The notes beneath the pieces were generated by a model, which saw only the letters and a program-made list of their open reading frames with translations, ran no database searches and had not been told where the DNA came from. The translations under genes were made by a program, and so were the position numbers. 46,953 nt of DNA from a virus: positions 1 through 46,953 of IMG/VR virus record IMGVR_UViG_3300024323_000011; one strand, given 5' to 3'. Positions 2,405 through 41,102 of this stretch are shown one piece after another. The stretch's first letter is position 1. Each line of letters starts with the position of its first letter.

Positions 2405-4184
2405 TGTCAATATCCTAAAAGAAGCAACGTCGCGTGACTTCTCTGGTGGATTGAACGTAGCTGATACGGAACTCAATCTATCGAGCAAATACGCGCGTGC
2501 GTTGGATAACCTTCTTGTAGGACTTGATGGTTCGTTGCAGTTGCGACAAGGCACGAAGTGGTTTGCTTCACTTAATGCGTTGACCGACTACTCCATTGTG
2601 AATATGGAGTATTTCCTCACGAAGCTCGTTGCAGTTGACGAGATTGGACAAGTATTCACGATTGATGGTACTGGTGTTGCTACTCGTATTTGGGATGCGG
2701 CGATTGCAGCAGCGACGAGAGTAGGACTTACAATTTGGAGTCCCACACAACAATGTCTATTCGTTGAGTTCAATGGTTCGTTGATTATCACGAATGGAGT
2801 GGATAAGCCTCTAACTGTTTCGTCGTCGTACGTTGTAGACTATCTCGCTGATCTTGGCACTGGTAGCAATATCAATGTGCCCATCGCACTACTCTGTGAA
2901 AAGTTCTCGCAGCATGTGATCTTCGCATCTGGCTCCATGCTCTACGTGAGTGAGAAAAACGCAGGAGGCACATGGCTCGGCGATCCCGGAGTACAGTTCG
3001 CAAACAACTTCGATATGAAGACGTATGTTACTAAGGGAAATACCACAATCGTTGGCCTTGCAATCTTCAAAGGCTATCTACTCGTTCGCTTCCAAGAATG
3101 CATCATTCCTGTGCAGCTTGTGGAGACTGTTGGTACACCTAACACTCTTACTCTGTCTGTATCACCTGATAGTATCATTCAGAACTACGGAGCAGTGTCA
3201 CACAGGACGCAGCAAGACATTGGAGACATGGCTCTCTCGTGTGACATCGTGGGTGTTGCCTCGGTAGAGTTGTCCAAGTTTACTCGCGTCCTCTCACCAG
3301 ATCGTCCGTCACGTTTGATTGATCCACTTCTACAAAAGGCTATCAACGCACTTCCATCCAGCACACTCAATACAGACGCATTCAGTGTGTACGATCGTCG
3401 TATGTCAATGTACATGTTGTTTTTGCCAGATGCGAAGAAGCCGTATCAGCTGAATTCTACTGGCTACTGTTACCGCTACGTGGATCGTCTCAACGTTGAG
3501 TCATGGTCACGGTTCGTTGGTTGGAATTGGCATTGTGGTGTTCGCTCTAGTGAAGGTAATGTCTTCTTCACACGCGAGAATAGTAGCGACATCTTTCTAC
3601 TCGGTAATGAACAGACAAACCCACTGAACGCTGATTTCGTAGGCGAGCAGGAGACTTTCACAGATGGTACTGACTTCACAGACGACACTGGATTCTCTCC
3701 GGTTGTCGATGTGAACGATAGTGGACTTCCTATCAAATGGGCGTGGGAACTTCCGTGGAGTGATTTGAAGCATCGCGCAATGGCGAAGACGCTTCGTTAC
3801 ATGATGATGGATACAGAAGGTTCAGCGATATTCAATATCAAAGTGTTCGTGGATAACTACTACATTCAAGCGAATAGCGGTGAGGAATTCGACGACGAGA
3901 CGCTGTTCGATGATGATACTGGATTCGATCCATTCGCTGATCCACCATTCATAGAAGCACTATCAATTGACATGGTAGGACGTGATCGTGGTGGATTCGG
4001 ACTAGACGCATACGGCGATCTCTACGGTGGTGGCAATAACACAGGAACACAACTCGTTACAGAGGCTCCAACGAAAGGCAAGATTGTGAAGATTCGCTTT
4101 GAAGGCGAGTCACTTGAAGCACTTCGCTTCGTCGCAATCACGTTGCTGTATCAAATGGGCACTGTTCGTAGCTTTGGAGTTTAA
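2397..4184 (+). CDS. Probable tail nozzle / packaged-DNA stabilisation protein
   Basis: This 595-residue beta-rich protein begins with the pattern DFSGGLNVADTELNLSSKYA then LDNLLVGLDGSLQLRQGTKW. That opening (remove defaults, then a list of located values) is shared by P22 gp10-type and T7 gp12-type proteins that plug the tail and form the nozzle. Repeated blade-like motifs (QHVIFASGSMLYVSEKN, FKGYLLVRFQE, RMSMYMLFLPD) fit a beta-propeller. The start at 2397 is preferred over an in-frame ATG at 2370 because GGGAGG lies at 2379-2384 and the extra residues simply re-read the upstream gene. It would sit under the adaptor and hold the tailspikes encoded next. Confidence 0.7.
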   Translation: MLNVNILKEATSRDFSGGLNVADTELNLSSKYARALDNLLVGLDGSLQLRQGTKWFASLNALTDYSIVNMEYFLTKLVAVDEIGQVFTIDGTGVATRIWDAAIAAATRVGLTIWSPTQQCLFVEFNGSLIITNGVDKPLTVSSSYVVDYLADLGTGSNINVPIALLCEKFSQHVIFASGSMLYVSEKNAGGTWLGDPGVQFANNFDMKTYVTKGNTTIVGLAIFKGYLLVRFQECIIPVQLVETVGTPNTLTLSVSPDSIIQNYGAVSHRTQQDIGDMALSCDIVGVASVELSKFTRVLSPDRPSRLIDPLLQKAINALPSSTLNTDAFSVYDRRMSMYMLFLPDAKKPYQLNSTGYCYRYVDRLNVESWSRFVGWNWHCGVRSSEGNVFFTRENSSDIFLLGNEQTNPLNADFVGEQETFTDGTDFTDDTGFSPVVDVNDSGLPIKWAWELPWSDLKHRAMAKTLRYMMMDTEGSAIFNIKVFVDNYYIQANSGEEFDDETLFDDDTGFDPFADPPFIEALSIDMVGRDRGGFGLDAYGDLYGGGNNTGTQLVTEAPTKGKIVKIRFEGESLEALRFVAITLLYQMGTVRSFGV

Positions 4185-4189
4185 TAATC

Positions 4190-6091
4190 GTGACAAGCCA
4201 AGTTGATCCCACAGTAATTCCAGATGATCGCAAGGTTCGTAAGGCTGACTTGCGTGAGCAGTTGGAAATCATCGCGCAAGAACTTACAGAGTTGGAAGAT
4301 GCTGTATCTATTCCACGGCAATCTGCGTTCAATTTTGAAGATGATCCACAAGCTATTCCTCCGCCAGCTAGTCTTACAGGATTGGACGGAAGCGGCATTC
4401 TCGTAACTGCTACTGGATCAAGTATTGCACGCACGCTTGCAGCTAGATTTGCTCAAGTATATGATGTTCAAGATTATCCAATTCCATTCAACGGTGTGAC
4501 GGATTCGACAGCAGCACTACAGAGTTTGATTAACGCTGTACCGAATGGCAGCATTATCAACTTCTCGAATCCGAATGCGATATATGTACTGACATCTACA
4601 CTCACGATGACAGACAAGCGCAACGTGTGGCTTGTCTCTGGTCTTGATCCTCGCAACTTTGGACAGACACCTTCATTTTTATGGAATGGCGGCAATCACG
4701 GTGTCATGGTTGACATGGTGCGCTGTCAGAATTGCCATATTGAAGGGTTCACTTGGAATACAACGGGTGGCGTGACTGTCGATACTGTTTTTAACATTGA
4801 TGGATATGCACCGGGCAACATCTCGACACAGAATGTCATTCGCTATAATGCGATCAATCTTTCCAACCAAACCAATTCTGCTACGAAAGCCATTGCGATT
4901 TCTGCTACGGCAGTTAATAACTGCGAGAACATAGATATTTGGGACAATTTAATCGTTCTATCTCCTTCGCTTCGTCCACTAACCGCTGGCATTGGCATTT
5001 GGGTAAGTACAAGTTCTAATGCAAAGCATCATCGCGTTTATAGAAATGCTATTACTCAAGGGACTATTGGTATTCAAGTCAATAACGGTTCCGTTGACAT
5101 CCAACATCTAGGTGGTGGATACAACGCAACTGATATTGAAATACTCGGAGCTTCTGAACCAATCTATATCCGTCAAATCGACACTGAAGGTAGTGGTGTA
5201 TCAGTACACTTCATTCCAAGTAATCAATGCTTGACGCTTGATGATTGCCGTTTTGCTAATGGTGATCAAACGAATGCTGGTGGTTTCATTAAAGTTACCG
5301 GCCTTGTTACGATTCGCAATTGTAGCTTTGAAGCGCGTCCTCCTGTTGGCGGCACGTTGATTGAATTCAATGGAACTGGCGCTCTTGGACTAACGATTCA
5401 TGATTGTATCTTCCAAGCCAACACGACGTATGCTGAATCAGGATTACAAGCGTATGTAGCGTTCCTCGACGCGAATTCAACTATCGGCGCCTTATTCGCT
5501 TGGAATCTACAAAAAATCGTTGGTATGCCGTCGCGTTATGCGATGGAATTCGCTGGTACACTTGATCCAGTAACAAATGATCCTACAGGCCATTACTTTG
5601 GTACATCTGTTAGATTTAGACCGCGCACATACAACCAAATCATGTTGGGCGGTGCAATTCCTACTGCTGGTGCATTTGCGTGTTTCAGTGACGCAACTGT
5701 AAACACACATGGCGCTGTAATCTCAAGTGGCGGCGGCACGAATACCGTACTTGGTTTTTTCGATGGAAGTTTCTGGACCGTATGTGGAAGGCCCGCACTT
5801 CAAGTTCCACGCACTGTTACAAGTGCTACTTACACGGTCGTTGCTTCAGATGATGTGTTGATTTTTAACCACGCGGGAACTGTCACAGTAACATTCCCAG
5901 CTGCAAACGCAAATCCTGGTAGAAAGATTCGCTTGAAGACGATCACAGCAAATACAGTGGTATCTGTTGCTACCGATGTTGTAGCACTCGATGGTACTGG
6001 TCCTGCATTCGCGATTCTAGCTGCTACAGCGGGTAAGTGGTGTGATCTTGAAGCGAATGGAACCAATTGGGAAATCATGGCGAGTAACTAA
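4190..6091 (+). CDS. Tailspike with right-handed beta-helix
   Basis: This 633-residue receptor-binding protein has a GTG start with GGAG at 4177-4180. Residues 1-50 form a short helical anchor (KADLREQLEIIAQELTELED). From about residue 93 a pectate-lyase-like opening appears (VQDYPIPFNGVTDSTAALQS), followed by a long parallel beta-helix rich in Asn ladders (residues about 120-480). The last 100 residues are a small all-beta cap (YTVVASDDVLIFNHAGTVTV to NGTNWEIMASN) seen at the ends of many phage fibres. It probably binds, and may cleave, a surface polysaccharide; no catalytic residues were assigned. The anchor is duplicated in the next gene. Confidence 0.85.
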   Translation: MTSQVDPTVIPDDRKVRKADLREQLEIIAQELTELEDAVSIPRQSAFNFEDDPQAIPPPASLTGLDGSGILVTATGSSIARTLAARFAQVYDVQDYPIPFNGVTDSTAALQSLINAVPNGSIINFSNPNAIYVLTSTLTMTDKRNVWLVSGLDPRNFGQTPSFLWNGGNHGVMVDMVRCQNCHIEGFTWNTTGGVTVDTVFNIDGYAPGNISTQNVIRYNAINLSNQTNSATKAIAISATAVNNCENIDIWDNLIVLSPSLRPLTAGIGIWVSTSSNAKHHRVYRNAITQGTIGIQVNNGSVDIQHLGGGYNATDIEILGASEPIYIRQIDTEGSGVSVHFIPSNQCLTLDDCRFANGDQTNAGGFIKVTGLVTIRNCSFEARPPVGGTLIEFNGTGALGLTIHDCIFQANTTYAESGLQAYVAFLDANSTIGALFAWNLQKIVGMPSRYAMEFAGTLDPVTNDPTGHYFGTSVRFRPRTYNQIMLGGAIPTAGAFACFSDATVNTHGAVISSGGGTNTVLGFFDGSFWTVCGRPALQVPRTVTSATYTVVASDDVLIFNHAGTVTVTFPAANANPGRKIRLKTITANTVVSVATDVVALDGTGPAFAILAATAGKWCDLEANGTNWEIMASN

Positions 6092-6093
6092 AC

Positions 6094-6261
6094 ATGGCAA
6101 GTCAAATTGATCCAGACGTTTTCCCAGACAACATAAAAGTAGACAAAGCTGATCTACGTGAGCAGTTCACGATTGCTGCTGCGGAAATCACTACGCTACA
6201 AAACACTACACGAGTGCCAAGGCAACTCGCGTATGACGATTCAAACTTTGACACGGTGTAG
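6094..6261 (+). CDS. Free-standing copy of the tailspike N-terminal anchor (55 aa)
   Basis: This 55-residue frame starts two bases after the tailspike stop. Its first 46 residues align without gaps to the tailspike N-terminus at 26 identical positions, including MxSQxDPxVxPD, KADLREQ and PRQxA. It ends right after the anchor, with no beta-helix. Either it is a decayed second tailspike that kept only its virion-binding part, or it is a genuine mini-protein that occupies or bridges anchor sites on the nozzle. The start lacks a good Shine-Dalgarno, so expression may depend on re-initiation after the tailspike stop. The open frame and clean stop argue against random decay. Confidence 0.75.
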   Translation: MASQIDPDVFPDNIKVDKADLREQFTIAAAEITTLQNTTRVPRQLAYDDSNFDTV

Positions 6262-6270
6262 GAGCAAAAC

Positions 6271-6672
6271 ATGAGTGACAAGATTGGCGTGCTTGGTGAA
6301 GCTGCAACAACGACGGTAGGTACGACTACTGTTTACACCGTGCCAACGGGGAAGGCAGCGAAAGGTAAGTTGATGTTCATCCTGCAAGGTAATGCAGGTG
6401 GCGGCAGCATCATCGAATTCTTCGTGAATGGTATGAGTATTGCGAAGATCGCTGCAATGACAGCGAGCTTCTACGCATTCAGCGTCAAGAGTGCAGGACT
6501 TCGCGCAGCAGAACAAGCAGCACAGCCTACAGGTATTGGCACGGCGCTCACGGTTGCTCCCGCTGATCCTATCTACTTCCTCAGTGCAGGTGATACGGTA
6601 CAGTACGCTACGTCTGGCGCAGCGCTCATTGCTGCGAACGTGCAATTCGTGGGTACTGAAATCGACGTGTAG
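6271..6672 (+). CDS. Small beta-rich tail-region protein, unknown
   Basis: This 133-residue protein starts at 6271 with GGAG at 6261-6264, just after the mini-anchor gene. It is Ala/Gly/Thr-rich with alternating strands (TTVYTVPTGKAAKGKLMFILQGN, FLSAGDTVQYATSGAALIAANVQFVGTEIDV). The layout, a jelly-roll-like module ending in a YxTS-x-N-x-QF-GTEI strand, is common in small phage tail or baseplate accessory proteins. No signal peptide or membrane segment was seen. Its place between tailspike and fibre suggests a virion component such as a fibre chaperone or tip. Confidence 0.65.
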   Translation: MSDKIGVLGEAATTTVGTTTVYTVPTGKAAKGKLMFILQGNAGGGSIIEFFVNGMSIAKIAAMTASFYAFSVKSAGLRAAEQAAQPTGIGTALTVAPADPIYFLSAGDTVQYATSGAALIAANVQFVGTEIDV

Positions 6673-8380: not shown

Positions 8381-8785
8381 ATGTTTCCACTTCTACTAGG
8401 CGTACTTAGCCCGATACTACAACAAGTTGTTAACAAGTTTTTCCCTGATCCTACAAAGCAGCAAGAATTCATGCTCGCATTCATGACGCAATTGCAGAGT
8501 GCGGACTTGGGACAACTTGAGATTAACAAAGCAGAAGCTGCCAGCGATGGGAATTTCAAAGGTGGATGGCGTCCTGCTATTGGTTGGGTGTGTGCTGGTG
8601 CTCTATTTTACCAGTACATTTTCATCCCCTTGGGTGGATATTTGTCTTCGTTTGTTGGTGAGCGTTATGTCACTGCTATTCTGAATGCTCCGAAGCTCGA
8701 TAACATGCTTTGGGAGTTGTTGTTCGGAATGCTCGGTATGGGTGCGTTGCGTTCATTCGATAAGTTCAAAGGATTGACCAAATGA
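8381..8785 (+). CDS. Holin of the 3-TM family
   Basis: This 134-residue protein matches the Holin_3TMs type. An amphipathic N-terminal helix is followed by a charged linker (DPTKQQEFMLAF). The family hallmark GGWRPAIGWVCAGALFYQYI sits near residue 60-79, then a second and a third hydrophobic helix (IFIPLGGYLSSFV, MLWELLFGMLGMGALRSFDK). It would form the timed inner-membrane hole that releases the amidase encoded 4 bases overlapping downstream (ATGA at 8782). GGAG lies at 8371-8374. Confidence 0.85.
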   Translation: MFPLLLGVLSPILQQVVNKFFPDPTKQQEFMLAFMTQLQSADLGQLEINKAEAASDGNFKGGWRPAIGWVCAGALFYQYIFIPLGGYLSSFVGERYVTAILNAPKLDNMLWELLFGMLGMGALRSFDKFKGLTK

Positions 8786-9354
8786 GTGACAGCGGTACTC
8801 CTGCACATTGGCCGTTCGTGATGTTCGATCCGCCGTCATTCAAAGTGCCACAGCGGAAAGTCACAAGAGTATTCCTACACTGTAGCGCTTGGGATGGCAA
8901 GGTAATCGGACAACAACTAGCGGAGACAATCAATGCTTGGCATCTTGCTAATGGTTGGCGCGGTGTTGGTTATCATTTTCTCGTGGACAATGTTGGAGGT
9001 ATTTGTACAGGGCGTCCACTAGAAGAACAACCTGCGGCACAACTCGGACCAGATCAACGCGGTAATATCGCGACGATTGCGATAATGACGAATGGATTGT
9101 GGGACTTTCAGGAAGCTGCGCTTGCAAGCACGTACATGCTATGCAAGGCGATTGATGATGCATACAAACTCGCGAATACACCTGTGACGTTCCACGGTCA
9201 CTGTGAAATTGATCCAAAGCCGTGTCCTGTGTACGACTATCAGGCATTGCTTGGACTTGTAGATGGGAAATTGAATGGCTGCACGCCCCACACGGCAGCC
9301 GATGTAGCGACGCTTGCAAGAGAGAAAGCTGCCGCACAATGGCACCATACATAG
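8782..9354 (+). CDS. N-acetylmuramoyl-L-alanine amidase (endolysin)
   Basis: This 190-residue Amidase_2/PGRP-fold endolysin cuts the bond between muramic acid and L-alanine of peptidoglycan. Zinc ligands are visible: H33 in VFLHCSAW, H140 in HGHCEID and C148 in KPCPVYD. K146 sits two before the cysteine, as K128 and C130 do in T7 lysozyme, and Y64 (GVGYHFLVD) corresponds to the T7 catalytic tyrosine. There is no signal peptide, so export needs the holin just upstream, with which it shares an ATGA junction. No separate cell-wall-binding domain is present. Confidence 0.92.
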   Translation: MSDSGTPAHWPFVMFDPPSFKVPQRKVTRVFLHCSAWDGKVIGQQLAETINAWHLANGWRGVGYHFLVDNVGGICTGRPLEEQPAAQLGPDQRGNIATIAIMTNGLWDFQEAALASTYMLCKAIDDAYKLANTPVTFHGHCEIDPKPCPVYDYQALLGLVDGKLNGCTPHTAADVATLAREKAAAQWHHT

Positions 9355-9821
9355 TCCGTGATGCTCACGGCTATGAAGTAGACAAGCTCGCTGCAATTGC
9401 GGGGCGTGTGTTAGGAGAAGCCCCAACCTACACACGCCTCGCATTCAATCACGAGAAGACTGCGAACTTACTAGCCGGAGCAATACTGAAACAAAAGGGT
9501 TGGTTCATTCGTGTGATCGCGGTGTCGGACACGGATGAGCCTGTAGGTGGAATTACAGCTGTATGTGAAGAGACAGCATTTGGACCTGATAAGATTGCAT
9601 ACGATCTGATAATGATAGTTGAAAAAGAACATCGCGGTAGATGTACACGTGCATTCATACAGTGCATCGAGGACTATCGCACATGGGCTTTGAATGAAGG
9701 TGCGAAGATTATCAAACTCGGCGTGTCGAGTGGCATCAAGATTGATAGCGTGTCGAATATACTAGAAAGACTTGGCTTCGTGCGTATTGGTTCTATGCAC
9801 GCGCATTTGACAGGAGTGTAA
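9339..9821 (+). CDS. GNAT-family acetyltransferase
   Basis: This 160-residue protein has the GNAT order. A mixed N-terminal part is followed by strands (WFIRVIAVSDTDEPVGGITA, IAYDLIMIVEKEHRG). The acetyl-CoA loop, normally R/Q-x-x-G-x-G/A, is here EHRGRCTRAFIQCIEDY. The C-terminal part (KIIKLGVSSG, SNILERLGFVRIGSMH) is typical of the fold's end. The start at 9339 is preferred over an in-frame upstream start because it gives a complete fold and only a 16-base overlap with the amidase. It sits between lysis and ejection genes, so it may modify a virion protein or an injected host target; the substrate is unknown. Confidence 0.8.
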   Translation: MAPYIVRDAHGYEVDKLAAIAGRVLGEAPTYTRLAFNHEKTANLLAGAILKQKGWFIRVIAVSDTDEPVGGITAVCEETAFGPDKIAYDLIMIVEKEHRGRCTRAFIQCIEDYRTWALNEGAKIIKLGVSSGIKIDSVSNILERLGFVRIGSMHAHLTGV

Positions 9822-31598: not shown

Positions 31599-32573
31599 TT
31601 ACCGTGCCATCTCCAATGCTGTCGTTAGCGCACTCGCTTTGAGCGCATCTCCACTACCAAACCACGCATTATTCAACGTGCGTGACTTGTCTTCACGATT
31701 CTGCATGTGATCGACCATGTATGTGATAGCATTGTATCCACTCCACCACGTACCACGGTTCATATCAGCTCCCACCTGCTCGGCGAGTGCGGAGACAGCT
31801 TTGGTGTAGTTACGCGGCCGGATAAGTTCAGGTGTTCCGCCACTCCGTTCAACCGTGCGAAGGGGAAAGAGTCTTTCGATGAACCGCGTGTAAGCAGCAT
31901 CGTCCATTGTCTTAGAGACAAGAAACTCTGCTTGTTCTCTGAATGTCTCAAGTGCACGGTGCCCGAGTCCGAGTGCGGACTTGGCTGTATCAGGATCGAA
32001 CTTGGTTCGATGATGAATTCTAAATTCTTGCCCGACACCCTGATGAGCAAGTGCGAGTGTATTAGCGCATACGACTCGGACTCCTGTGAATTTGATTCGT
32101 CCTCTTGCTCCGCCGTGACTGTTAGAAAAGAGCAAGAAGCCTTGCACTCTGTCGCCAGCGCTAAGAGTAAATCCTTCTCGTAGTGAAGCAAGGCACCAAA
32201 CAGTTCGACCTTCATCGAGTACGCCTCCTGTTTCAATGTCCATGTTGCCAGCATTGCAGAAGTCATGGAAGAAATCGAACACTTCGATGTTCTGCAACAC
32301 TTTGTACTGATTGGACACCACGTTGAGGATTAAGTGATTGTCGTCTCGCATGAGTGCGTATGCATCGGATTGGATGTGGTCACTCAATCCGTTATCGCGA
32401 TTCGCACGTACCCATAGGCGTTCTTTTCGGACGGTCCACGCGGCACCTGCGAGCTTCTGGAACTCGCGTGAAGACACTTCCTCGTTACGATCTACTGGCA
32501 TACCGAGTCCGTGCCACGGTGTATCGCTACGATCAGCGAAACGATACGCCATTGTTTCTACGTTAGCTGGCAT
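31599..32573 (-). CDS. DUF932 (TIGR03299-like) protein
   Basis: This 324-residue protein matches DUF932, a family of phage- and plasmid-encoded proteins. ETMAYRFADRSDTPWHGLG opens it, and LWVRANRDNG, HLILNVVSNQYKVLQNIEVF, GFLLFSNSHGGARGRIKFTG and VRVVCANTLALAH follow, in the family's order. The start at 32573 is preferred over 32705 because GGGAGA lies 9-14 bases upstream and homologous proteins begin near MAYRF. Family members occur in early modules and their biochemical role is unknown; a defence- or recombination-related role has been guessed for some. Confidence 0.85.
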   Translation of the reverse strand: MPANVETMAYRFADRSDTPWHGLGMPVDRNEEVSSREFQKLAGAAWTVRKERLWVRANRDNGLSDHIQSDAYALMRDDNHLILNVVSNQYKVLQNIEVFDFFHDFCNAGNMDIETGGVLDEGRTVWCLASLREGFTLSAGDRVQGFLLFSNSHGGARGRIKFTGVRVVCANTLALAHQGVGQEFRIHHRTKFDPDTAKSALGLGHRALETFREQAEFLVSKTMDDAAYTRFIERLFPLRTVERSGGTPELIRPRNYTKAVSALAEQVGADMNRGTWWSGYNAITYMVDHMQNREDKSRTLNNAWFGSGDALKASALTTALEMAR

Positions 32574-32598
32574 GTGCGTCGTCTCCCTCTGGCTCGTT

Positions 32599-32910
32599 TC
32601 ATTGTGCGTCAAGCGGTGGCCGCGGTTCGATAATCGCAAGCTCCGGTGCAGGAAGTGCAACAGGTGCATTGAGTGTATTCCATCCCTTGCGACGGAAGTA
32701 CTCAATAAGTACAGCGTGAAGACGCGAACCCTTCACGCCTACATCGTAGTTCTCACACAGTTCATACGAGATTTTAATCTCGCCATGAACACGTCCAGAC
32801 ACTTTGATGTCGAGTGTCATGTGTCCGATGTCCTTCGCATCGAACTCGTTACGCAGTTCCATCGCTGCTTCTTTGAGTACAGCGTGTAGCTTATCAAACA
32901 TTAGTGACAT
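32599..32910 (-). CDS. Protein of unknown function
   Basis: This 103-residue protein begins with a helix (MSLMFDKLHAVLKEAAMELR) then strands DIGHMTLDIKVSGRVHGEIK, a CxxN segment (LCENYDVGVKGSRLHAVLIE) and a Pro-rich end. The start at 32910 overlaps the upstream gene by 17 bases. The alternating strand then helix build suggests a small alpha/beta fold. No motif seen; expression is probably coupled to the upstream gene. Confidence 0.7.
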   Translation of the reverse strand: MSLMFDKLHAVLKEAAMELRNEFDAKDIGHMTLDIKVSGRVHGEIKISYELCENYDVGVKGSRLHAVLIEYFRRKGWNTLNAPVALPAPELAIIEPRPPLDAQ

Positions 32911-39855: not shown

Positions 39856-40186
39856 TCCATATATCAATTACACAGGAACGTCATCGTTCCCAATCAAAGC
39901 TGCGACGAAGATTCGTAAGACTGTTGAGAGTACGCCTCTCTTGACAGTGACCAATGCGTATAAACTCGTGTTCCCTGAGAACGCACTGCGTAAGGGATTC
40001 GCTATCGAGAGTGCTGTATCGAATACCACGAAAGTGTACGTTCGCTACGGCACAACCGGACCAGAATGGGAACTCTCTGGCGGCGGTAGCTTTGGCCGCG
40101 ATGTTAAGACAGGTAGCGTATTCACAGGCGAGCTTTACATGAAGGGTGCTTCCGGTGGTGAAGCATTCATCGCAGAGGAATACTAG
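39845..40186 (+). CDS. Beta-rich protein, unknown
   Basis: This 113-residue protein starts at 39845 with GGAG 8 bases upstream, 11 bases inside the upstream gene. It has strands (YINYTGTSSFPIKAATKIRK, TPLLTVTNAYKLVFPENALR, VYVRYGTTGPEWELSGGGSF) ending in FIAEEY. This is like small phage fibre or head-surface domains (jelly-roll). No signal peptide, unlike the next two genes. A virion role is guessed from composition. Confidence 0.7.
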   Translation: MPPDPYINYTGTSSFPIKAATKIRKTVESTPLLTVTNAYKLVFPENALRKGFAIESAVSNTTKVYVRYGTTGPEWELSGGGSFGRDVKTGSVFTGELYMKGASGGEAFIAEEY

Positions 40187-40187
40187 A

Positions 40188-41102
40188 ATGAAGCGCATTA
40201 CCGCACTATTACTCGCGCTACTGTATAGTACGGTTGCGCTCGCTCAAGGTCCAGTCAATCCGGGTGGTGGTGGTGCGGCAGGTGTAACTGCATCTGGTAC
40301 GCCGTGGACGTTGGCAGGTACGAGTGGACAGACATACACACTTCCTACTGCAACATCCACGCTCGCGATACTTGGAGCGAATACGTACACAGGTACGCAG
40401 ACATTTGCGGATGCTGGTACATGGAGTGCAACAGGCATTACACTTGGAGCGAATCTTAACTTCAATGGTACTAATGCCAATTCTATAGCGAATATTGCTT
40501 ATAGTGGACAGCTTGTGGGAACGACATCACAAGCAAATGCTATAGCTGTTGGTCAAAACGGCACAACGACGCCTGCATTCAGAGTTGATGCTTCAACTGC
40601 TTCGCAAACAGGTGGATTAAAGATTACAGGTAGTGCATTGAATGGCACTGTTGCTGTAGCTGTTACTGACACATCAGGCAACACGAATCTAACAATCAAT
40701 GCTCTTGGTACAGGCACGATTGGCATTGGTTCTGTATCTACTGGTGCTGTTACTATAACACCAAATGTCACGCATAGCGGGACGACTACGCTTGCAGGTG
40801 CGATTGCACAGACATCTGGCACTGCATTTTTTGCTTGCACAACGACAAACTCAAGTGACACGTTTACTTGCACAGCGTCTCCAGCAATCACAGCGTATAC
40901 AACGAGTGCGATCTATCTAGTCAAGTTCAACGCTGCGAACACGACGACGACGCCGACTATCAATATGAACACGCTAGGCGCTAAGACGATTGTGAAGCGT
41001 GCGTCTACTGCACTCGCTGCATCTGACATCACAGCGAATGGATACTACTGGCTCATCTACAACGGAAGCACTATGCAGATCGTCAACCCAACAGTCAACT
41101 AG
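40188..41102 (+). CDS. Fibre-like protein with a Sec signal peptide
   Basis: This 304-residue protein starts at 40188 with GAGG upstream; the longer frame from 40146 lacks a ribosome site. A signal peptide is clear (MKRITALLLALLYSTVALA), with cleavage before QGPVNPG. The mature part is Thr/Ala/Gly/Asn-rich, with fibre-shaft repeats (TLAILGANTYTGTQTFADAG, GTGTIGIGSVSTGAVTITPN) and a C-terminal strand set ending YWLIYNGSTMQIVNPTVN. A fibre-like protein that is exported is unusual. It may coat the host or be released to block receptors. Confidence 0.75.
   Translation: MKRITALLLALLYSTVALAQGPVNPGGGGAAGVTASGTPWTLAGTSGQTYTLPTATSTLAILGANTYTGTQTFADAGTWSATGITLGANLNFNGTNANSIANIAYSGQLVGTTSQANAIAVGQNGTTTPAFRVDASTASQTGGLKITGSALNGTVAVAVTDTSGNTNLTINALGTGTIGIGSVSTGAVTITPNVTHSGTTTLAGAIAQTSGTAFFACTTTNSSDTFTCTASPAITAYTTSAIYLVKFNAANTTTTPTINMNTLGAKTIVKRASTALAASDITANGYYWLIYNGSTMQIVNPTVN

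Follow-up and report, generated by a model that had tools for sequence, protein, structure and literature searches.

A conserved stand-alone gene resembling a tailspike anchor and its probable role as a docking protein on a podophage tail nozzle

What can a frame of only 55 codons encode when it lies immediately behind a tailspike gene and repeats the beginning of that spike without its remainder? The window, that is, the whole stretch of DNA analysed here, is a virus record of 46953 bases, whose end is linked to its start by a second contig with a 132-base overlap, the two copies differing at one base, so that the genome is taken to be close to complete and circularly assembled. The frame in question, hereafter the mini-gene, runs from ATG to TAG and encodes MASQIDPDVFPDNIKVDKADLREQFTIAAAEITTLQNTTRVPRQLAYDDSNFDTV; it starts 2 nt past the stop codon of the spike gene (6089–6091) and ends 9 nt ahead of the next gene (Table 1), and in this region the window is matched almost exactly by three contigs from other metagenomes. 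An earlier note on this DNA had claimed that the frame aligns without gaps to the first 46 residues of the spike at 26 positions and then stops, with no receptor-binding part, its product either filling or bridging anchor sites on the nozzle or being what is left of a second spike since lost. The ungapped match over 46 residues was reproduced, with 25 identities after residue 1, rising to 26 if the GTG start of the spike is taken as Met, and the local BLOSUM62 score of 129 is far above chance (the best of 2000 shuffles of the mini-protein reached 49). A receptor-binding or enzymatic part is likewise absent from the same chain, which is closed by a stop codon after 52–81 aa in all of the 13 viruses that carry the gene (see below). 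The supposed abrupt end of the anchor did not hold, for the last nine residues belong to a C-terminal motif common to the stand-alone relatives. The frame is thus a real gene with likeness to the spike anchor.

Table 1. Positions of the mini-gene, its parts and the neighbouring tail genes in the window
Feature	Position	Strand	Basis
Nozzle protein, 604 aa	2370..4184	+	Model pLDDT 81, pTM 0.80; podophage nozzle/tail structures on top
Tailspike N-terminal anchor, 46 residues, mini-protein paralogue	4190..4327	+	Alignment; tree
Tailspike body (protein 633 aa in all, 4190-6091)	4328..6091	+	PHROG tail protein match, residues 77-130
Mini-gene, 55-aa stand-alone anchor protein	6094..6261	+	ORF; orthologues at same place in 12 related contigs; dN/dS
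Predicted short coiled-coil segment, residues 17-36	6142..6201	+	Column hydrophobicity; heptad insertion in L049
C-terminal motif R-x-x-A-[YF]-x-D-x-x-F-[DN]-x-[VIL], residues 43-55	6220..6258	+	Alignment
133-aa jelly-roll protein	6271..6672	+	Model pLDDT 92.9; always directly after mini-gene
Tail fibre with own, different N-terminal segment	6685..8076	+	PHROG tail fibre match; clade-conserved

Among the neighbours of the mini-gene, the predicted model of the nozzle protein matches in Foldseek the nozzle/tail chains of Pa223, PhiM1, VP1, cyanophage A4, Sf6 gp8, P22 gp10 and T7 gp12, with E values down to 1e-21, which justifies the label and confirms, at the level of the model, a podophage nozzle with a fold of the P22 gp10/T7 gp12 type. 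The tailspike body gives weak tailspike/pectin-lyase matches in phages, and no homologue of it occurs in those loci of the relatives that were retrieved, the window being the only case of a spike between the nozzle gene and the mini-gene. The N-terminus of the tail fibre has homologues in the relatives, including those without a mini-gene. Elsewhere in the window, a 318-aa protein (40146–41102) just upstream of the terminase gene combines a Sec-signal-peptide-like start with fibre-like repeats and has no match in Pfam or PHROG; a GTA-type three-helix holin (8381–8785; PF11351, E 4e-19) is encoded upstream of the amidase gene; an acetyltransferase-like gene (9348–9821; PHROG 1249) adjoins the amidase, and frames of ~157–197 aa resembling it by eye follow the fibre or the amidase in L020, L043, L044, L046 and L048; and a DUF932/PHROG 1221 protein lies in the early-gene region (31602–32600, − strand).

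The question of whether the mini-gene is kept by other viruses was approached with a degenerate pattern for the module helix, which retrieved two diverged viruses (L011 and L015), and with nozzle and mini-protein profiles, which then yielded 47 loci. A stand-alone mini-gene of 52–81 aa lies directly 3′ of the nozzle gene in 12 related contigs, none of which has a spike there (0/12); with the window, where the spike stands between the two genes, they form a clade of 13 viruses (the window, L011, L018, L019, L020, L024, L025, L026, L027, L028, L029, L031 and L049). The order in the clade is nozzle gene, mini-gene, a ~133-aa gene and, wherever the contig extends far enough, the fibre gene, an adaptor-like gene preceding the nozzle gene in the relatives. 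The mini-gene overlaps or abuts the end of the nozzle gene in several relatives, and in most of them a ribosome-binding site lies ahead of it. Of the two outcomes for which the earlier note had suggested searching the relatives, an intact frame was found in all 13 viruses (the 12 related contigs and the window) and a full second spike at this place in none of the relatives. In more distant viruses of the same nozzle family (L032–L048, L051, L053–L056 and L064), neither the mini-gene nor the 133-aa gene is present anywhere in the records, and the nozzle gene leads directly to the fibre gene where downstream sequence exists, barring short unrelated frames; on the nozzle tree, the group with both small genes requires one change. 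Bacterial genomes gave no match to the anchor alignment and one to the nozzle, in a distant MAG (L086) without the mini-gene, and a scan of viral contigs with a DNA pattern for KADLRANF returned only chance matches besides L024 again. Spike-like genes with different N-termini occur downstream of the fibre gene in L020 (11327–12994, signal-peptide-like) and L019 (9610–11430, MLDFP...), suggesting that spikes enter the clade at several places.

The mini-gene is under purifying selection. The Nei–Gojobori method was applied to pairs of relatives; seven pairs had a measurable dS, and dN/dS is 0.13–0.25 in six of them (L011/L019, 0.13; L026/L028, 0.14; L025/L026, 0.17; L027/L028, 0.22; L025/L027, 0.23; L011/L020, 0.25), compared with 0.08–0.26 for the nozzle gene; the closest pair, L026/L027, gives 0.66, yet with a dS of only 0.095. 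Under substitution without selection, the frame would stay open with its start in only ~6–24% of cases at 20–40% divergence. The identities of the window to L011 and L015/L019 are of the same order for the mini-protein (58 and 64%) and the nozzle (53 and 53%). Neither frameshifts or random loss among relatives nor a neutral dN/dS, all named by the earlier note among the results that would refute its view, was encountered.

The relation between the mini-gene and the foot of the spike was examined in an anchor tree of 17 sequences and 55 columns, a size at which trees are weak. The spike anchor nests within the stand-alone clade (88/85), as sister to the mini-protein of L018 (91/88), and forcing it together with the mini-protein of the window costs 7.2 log units (p-AU 0.08), so that this pairing is disfavoured, not rejected; the end branch of the window mini-protein is ordinary (0.28) and that of the spike anchor long (0.58). 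This nesting suggests that the stand-alone gene is the older state in the clade and that the spike is the newcomer, standing on a copied foot. Most likely, therefore, the tailspike of the window acquired its foot from a stand-alone mini-gene. Tandem duplication within the genome was dropped as a proven route, since the tree favours the place of the spike anchor beside the L018 mini-protein; the spike may have come from a sister virus, or the original copy may have been fused and a second mini-gene then imported. The module itself is more widespread, standing at the N-terminus of fibre-like proteins of L062, L009 and the Thiohalocapsa phage MD04, and the mini-protein resembles in sequence the N-terminal anchor of its own spike, of the L062 fibre and of the Thiohalocapsa protein. 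L062, which has the same nozzle family as the window, matches the module with an E value of 4e-9; its 518-aa protein (3317–4873), encoded upstream of the nozzle gene, joins the module to a C-terminal part of lectin-type appearance. The Thiohalocapsa protein shows 58% identity over 36 aa to the L024 mini-protein and was the only credible match in a tblastn search of mini-proteins against named phages; a Hafnia match at chance level (E 7) and a Sphingopyxis match to the spike N-terminus, lying antisense to its gene, were dismissed. L009, as read from its ORFs, is myovirus-like, with Mu/P2-like baseplate genes and without a nozzle, so that the docking partner of the module need not be a nozzle. 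Because the module heads fibre-like proteins at greater depth, a fibre may, in the distant past, have given rise to the stand-alone gene itself.

The mini-protein is more than a clipped anchor. Its invariant residues in the alignment are M1, S3, D12, K18, R22, E31 and L35, and the hydrophobic columns 21, 25, 28, 32 and 35 fit a heptad, a modest signal, as 399 of 20000 shuffles (about 2%) reach its score. The mini-protein of L049 speaks more strongly for a coiled coil than this score does, for it has exactly 7 extra residues in the helix stretch, with the heptad pattern continued. The last 13 residues form the C-terminal motif, kept in most mini-proteins; the spike has its first half (PRQSAF) and then diverges, and it is this final part, kept in most mini-proteins but missing from the spike, that argues against a mere truncation.

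The constant neighbour of the mini-gene, the ~133-aa gene, is found in exactly the same 13 viruses, its product being 124 aa in L049 and cut by the contig end in L025. This co-occurrence is weak proof of a partnership, because on the nozzle tree it amounts to one event and not to thirteen independent ones. The protein has no family match; a viral relative (A0A6J5RUN5) shares 53% identity with it. Its model is a beta sandwich that comes closest, among solved structures, to C1q heads and to the trimeric cement proteins of the Helicobacter phages KHP30 and KHP40, with TM scores of about 0.5 or below. A trimeric knob is a plausible reading of the model.

Taking these features together, we consider it probable that the mini-protein is a small coiled-coil adapter, presumably a trimer, which uses the module it shares with the spike to dock on the nozzle and carries a separate head, the latter probably being the 133-aa knob. 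The mini-gene would then be an ancestral virion-module gene in a clade of nozzle-type podoviruses, its product composed of an N-terminal docking peptide, a short and probably trimeric coiled coil and the C-terminal motif. The first of these most likely binds the tail nozzle in the manner in which some receptor-binding proteins use the same module as an N-terminal anchor, and the last may hold a head encoded by a separate gene. The most likely candidate for that head is the jelly-roll knob next door, in which case the two genes would make a split appendage. In the window, a tailspike body would have received, by fusion, a copy of the mini-gene as its foot immediately behind the nozzle gene, and virions could then bear spike and mini-protein on equivalent sites. 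The more specific version, a two-gene short fibre of 55-aa anchor and 133-aa head, with a duplicate of the docking gene joined to an enzymatic spike in the window, is put forward more tentatively, at somewhat less than even confidence. As to the earlier proposal that the mini-protein fills or bridges anchor sites on the nozzle, a conserved, selected and free-standing protein of anchor type is borne out, and the docking would be compatible with the data.

The closest known idea is gp37 of SP6 and K1-5, a free-standing tail protein that is akin to the N-terminal anchor of fibres in related phages and attaches separately encoded receptor-binding proteins; it is about 300 aa long, includes a T4 gp10-like domain and holds the tailspikes through peptides of 7 and 11 residues (PMC6872550). 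The mini-protein is likewise free-standing and related to a fibre/spike anchor; unlike gp37, however, it has 55 aa and no T4 gp10-like domain, neither it nor its profile matching anything in Pfam, PHROG or PDB sequences, and no SP6- or K1-5-type record was among its matches in the phage collection. Membership in the gp37 family was ruled out, as size, domains and sequence all differ. In the Thiohalocapsa phage LS06-2018-MD04 (TPMD04_24) and in the L062 and L009 fibres, the same N-terminal module of ~38 residues is fused to a large protein, whereas in the mini-gene clade it forms a separate protein that ends in a C-terminal motif of its own.

Other roles next to a nozzle are also to be weighed. 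In P22-like phages, the needle gene comes after the nozzle gene, and the needle of P22 (gp26) or Sf6 is a trimeric coiled coil of a single protein of over 200 aa, in Sf6 with a knob of the general C1q/TNF-like kind. A split tail needle, in which a very short trimeric coiled coil, the mini-protein, closes the distal nozzle end and has the 133-aa jelly roll for a knob, would accord with the gene order in the relatives, with the resemblance of the 133-aa fold to trimeric C1q/TNF-like heads and with the coiled-coil pattern and its heptad insertion. We nevertheless regard it as unlikely: needles are single long proteins; the profiles of both small proteins lack a match to solved P22/Sf6-type needle proteins among PDB sequences; the 133-aa fold is only generically C1q/TNF-like, with no needle knob among its 50 best fold matches; and the tailspike, having the N-terminal module in common, would have to sit at a central site, which is unusual.

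Slightly less likely still is a small nozzle assembly factor, the spike having merely reused a nozzle-binding peptide. The model for it would be T7 gp7.3, a small scaffold protein between nozzle and adaptor, held by its C-terminal loop at two neighbouring nozzle subunits (PMC11784390). The position of the mini-gene, directly after the nozzle gene and in several relatives touching it, would suit such a factor, and both would be small, nozzle-bound tail proteins. However, gp7.3 has 99 aa, lies inside the channel and contacts DNA through a mostly positive N-terminus, whereas that of the mini-protein is acidic and followed by a heptad helix; a sequence relation between the two was not found, and a module that recurs at the start of fibres and spikes accords better with a docking site on the outside. 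Very improbable, finally, is the remnant of a lost second spike, which the tandem position, the likeness to the spike anchor and a possible remote descent from a fused fibre might suggest but which is contradicted by the conserved C-terminal motif, the spike-less relatives and a tree in which the spike anchor branches within the stand-alone proteins, a pseudogene or spike remnant having been rejected on the 13 intact frames and the dN/dS values.

How phages add a new tailspike while the old tail stays compatible is an open question in the field. In this clade the docking module is a gene in its own right, kept by selection, in 13 viruses, and one of them also has it as the foot of a spike, which makes a concrete before-and-after case. 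If the reading as a split appendage is true, the genome records the gain of a spike by copying a stand-alone docking gene. The case also suggests that similarly tiny, unannotated genes beside the nozzle genes of other podophages may be structural.
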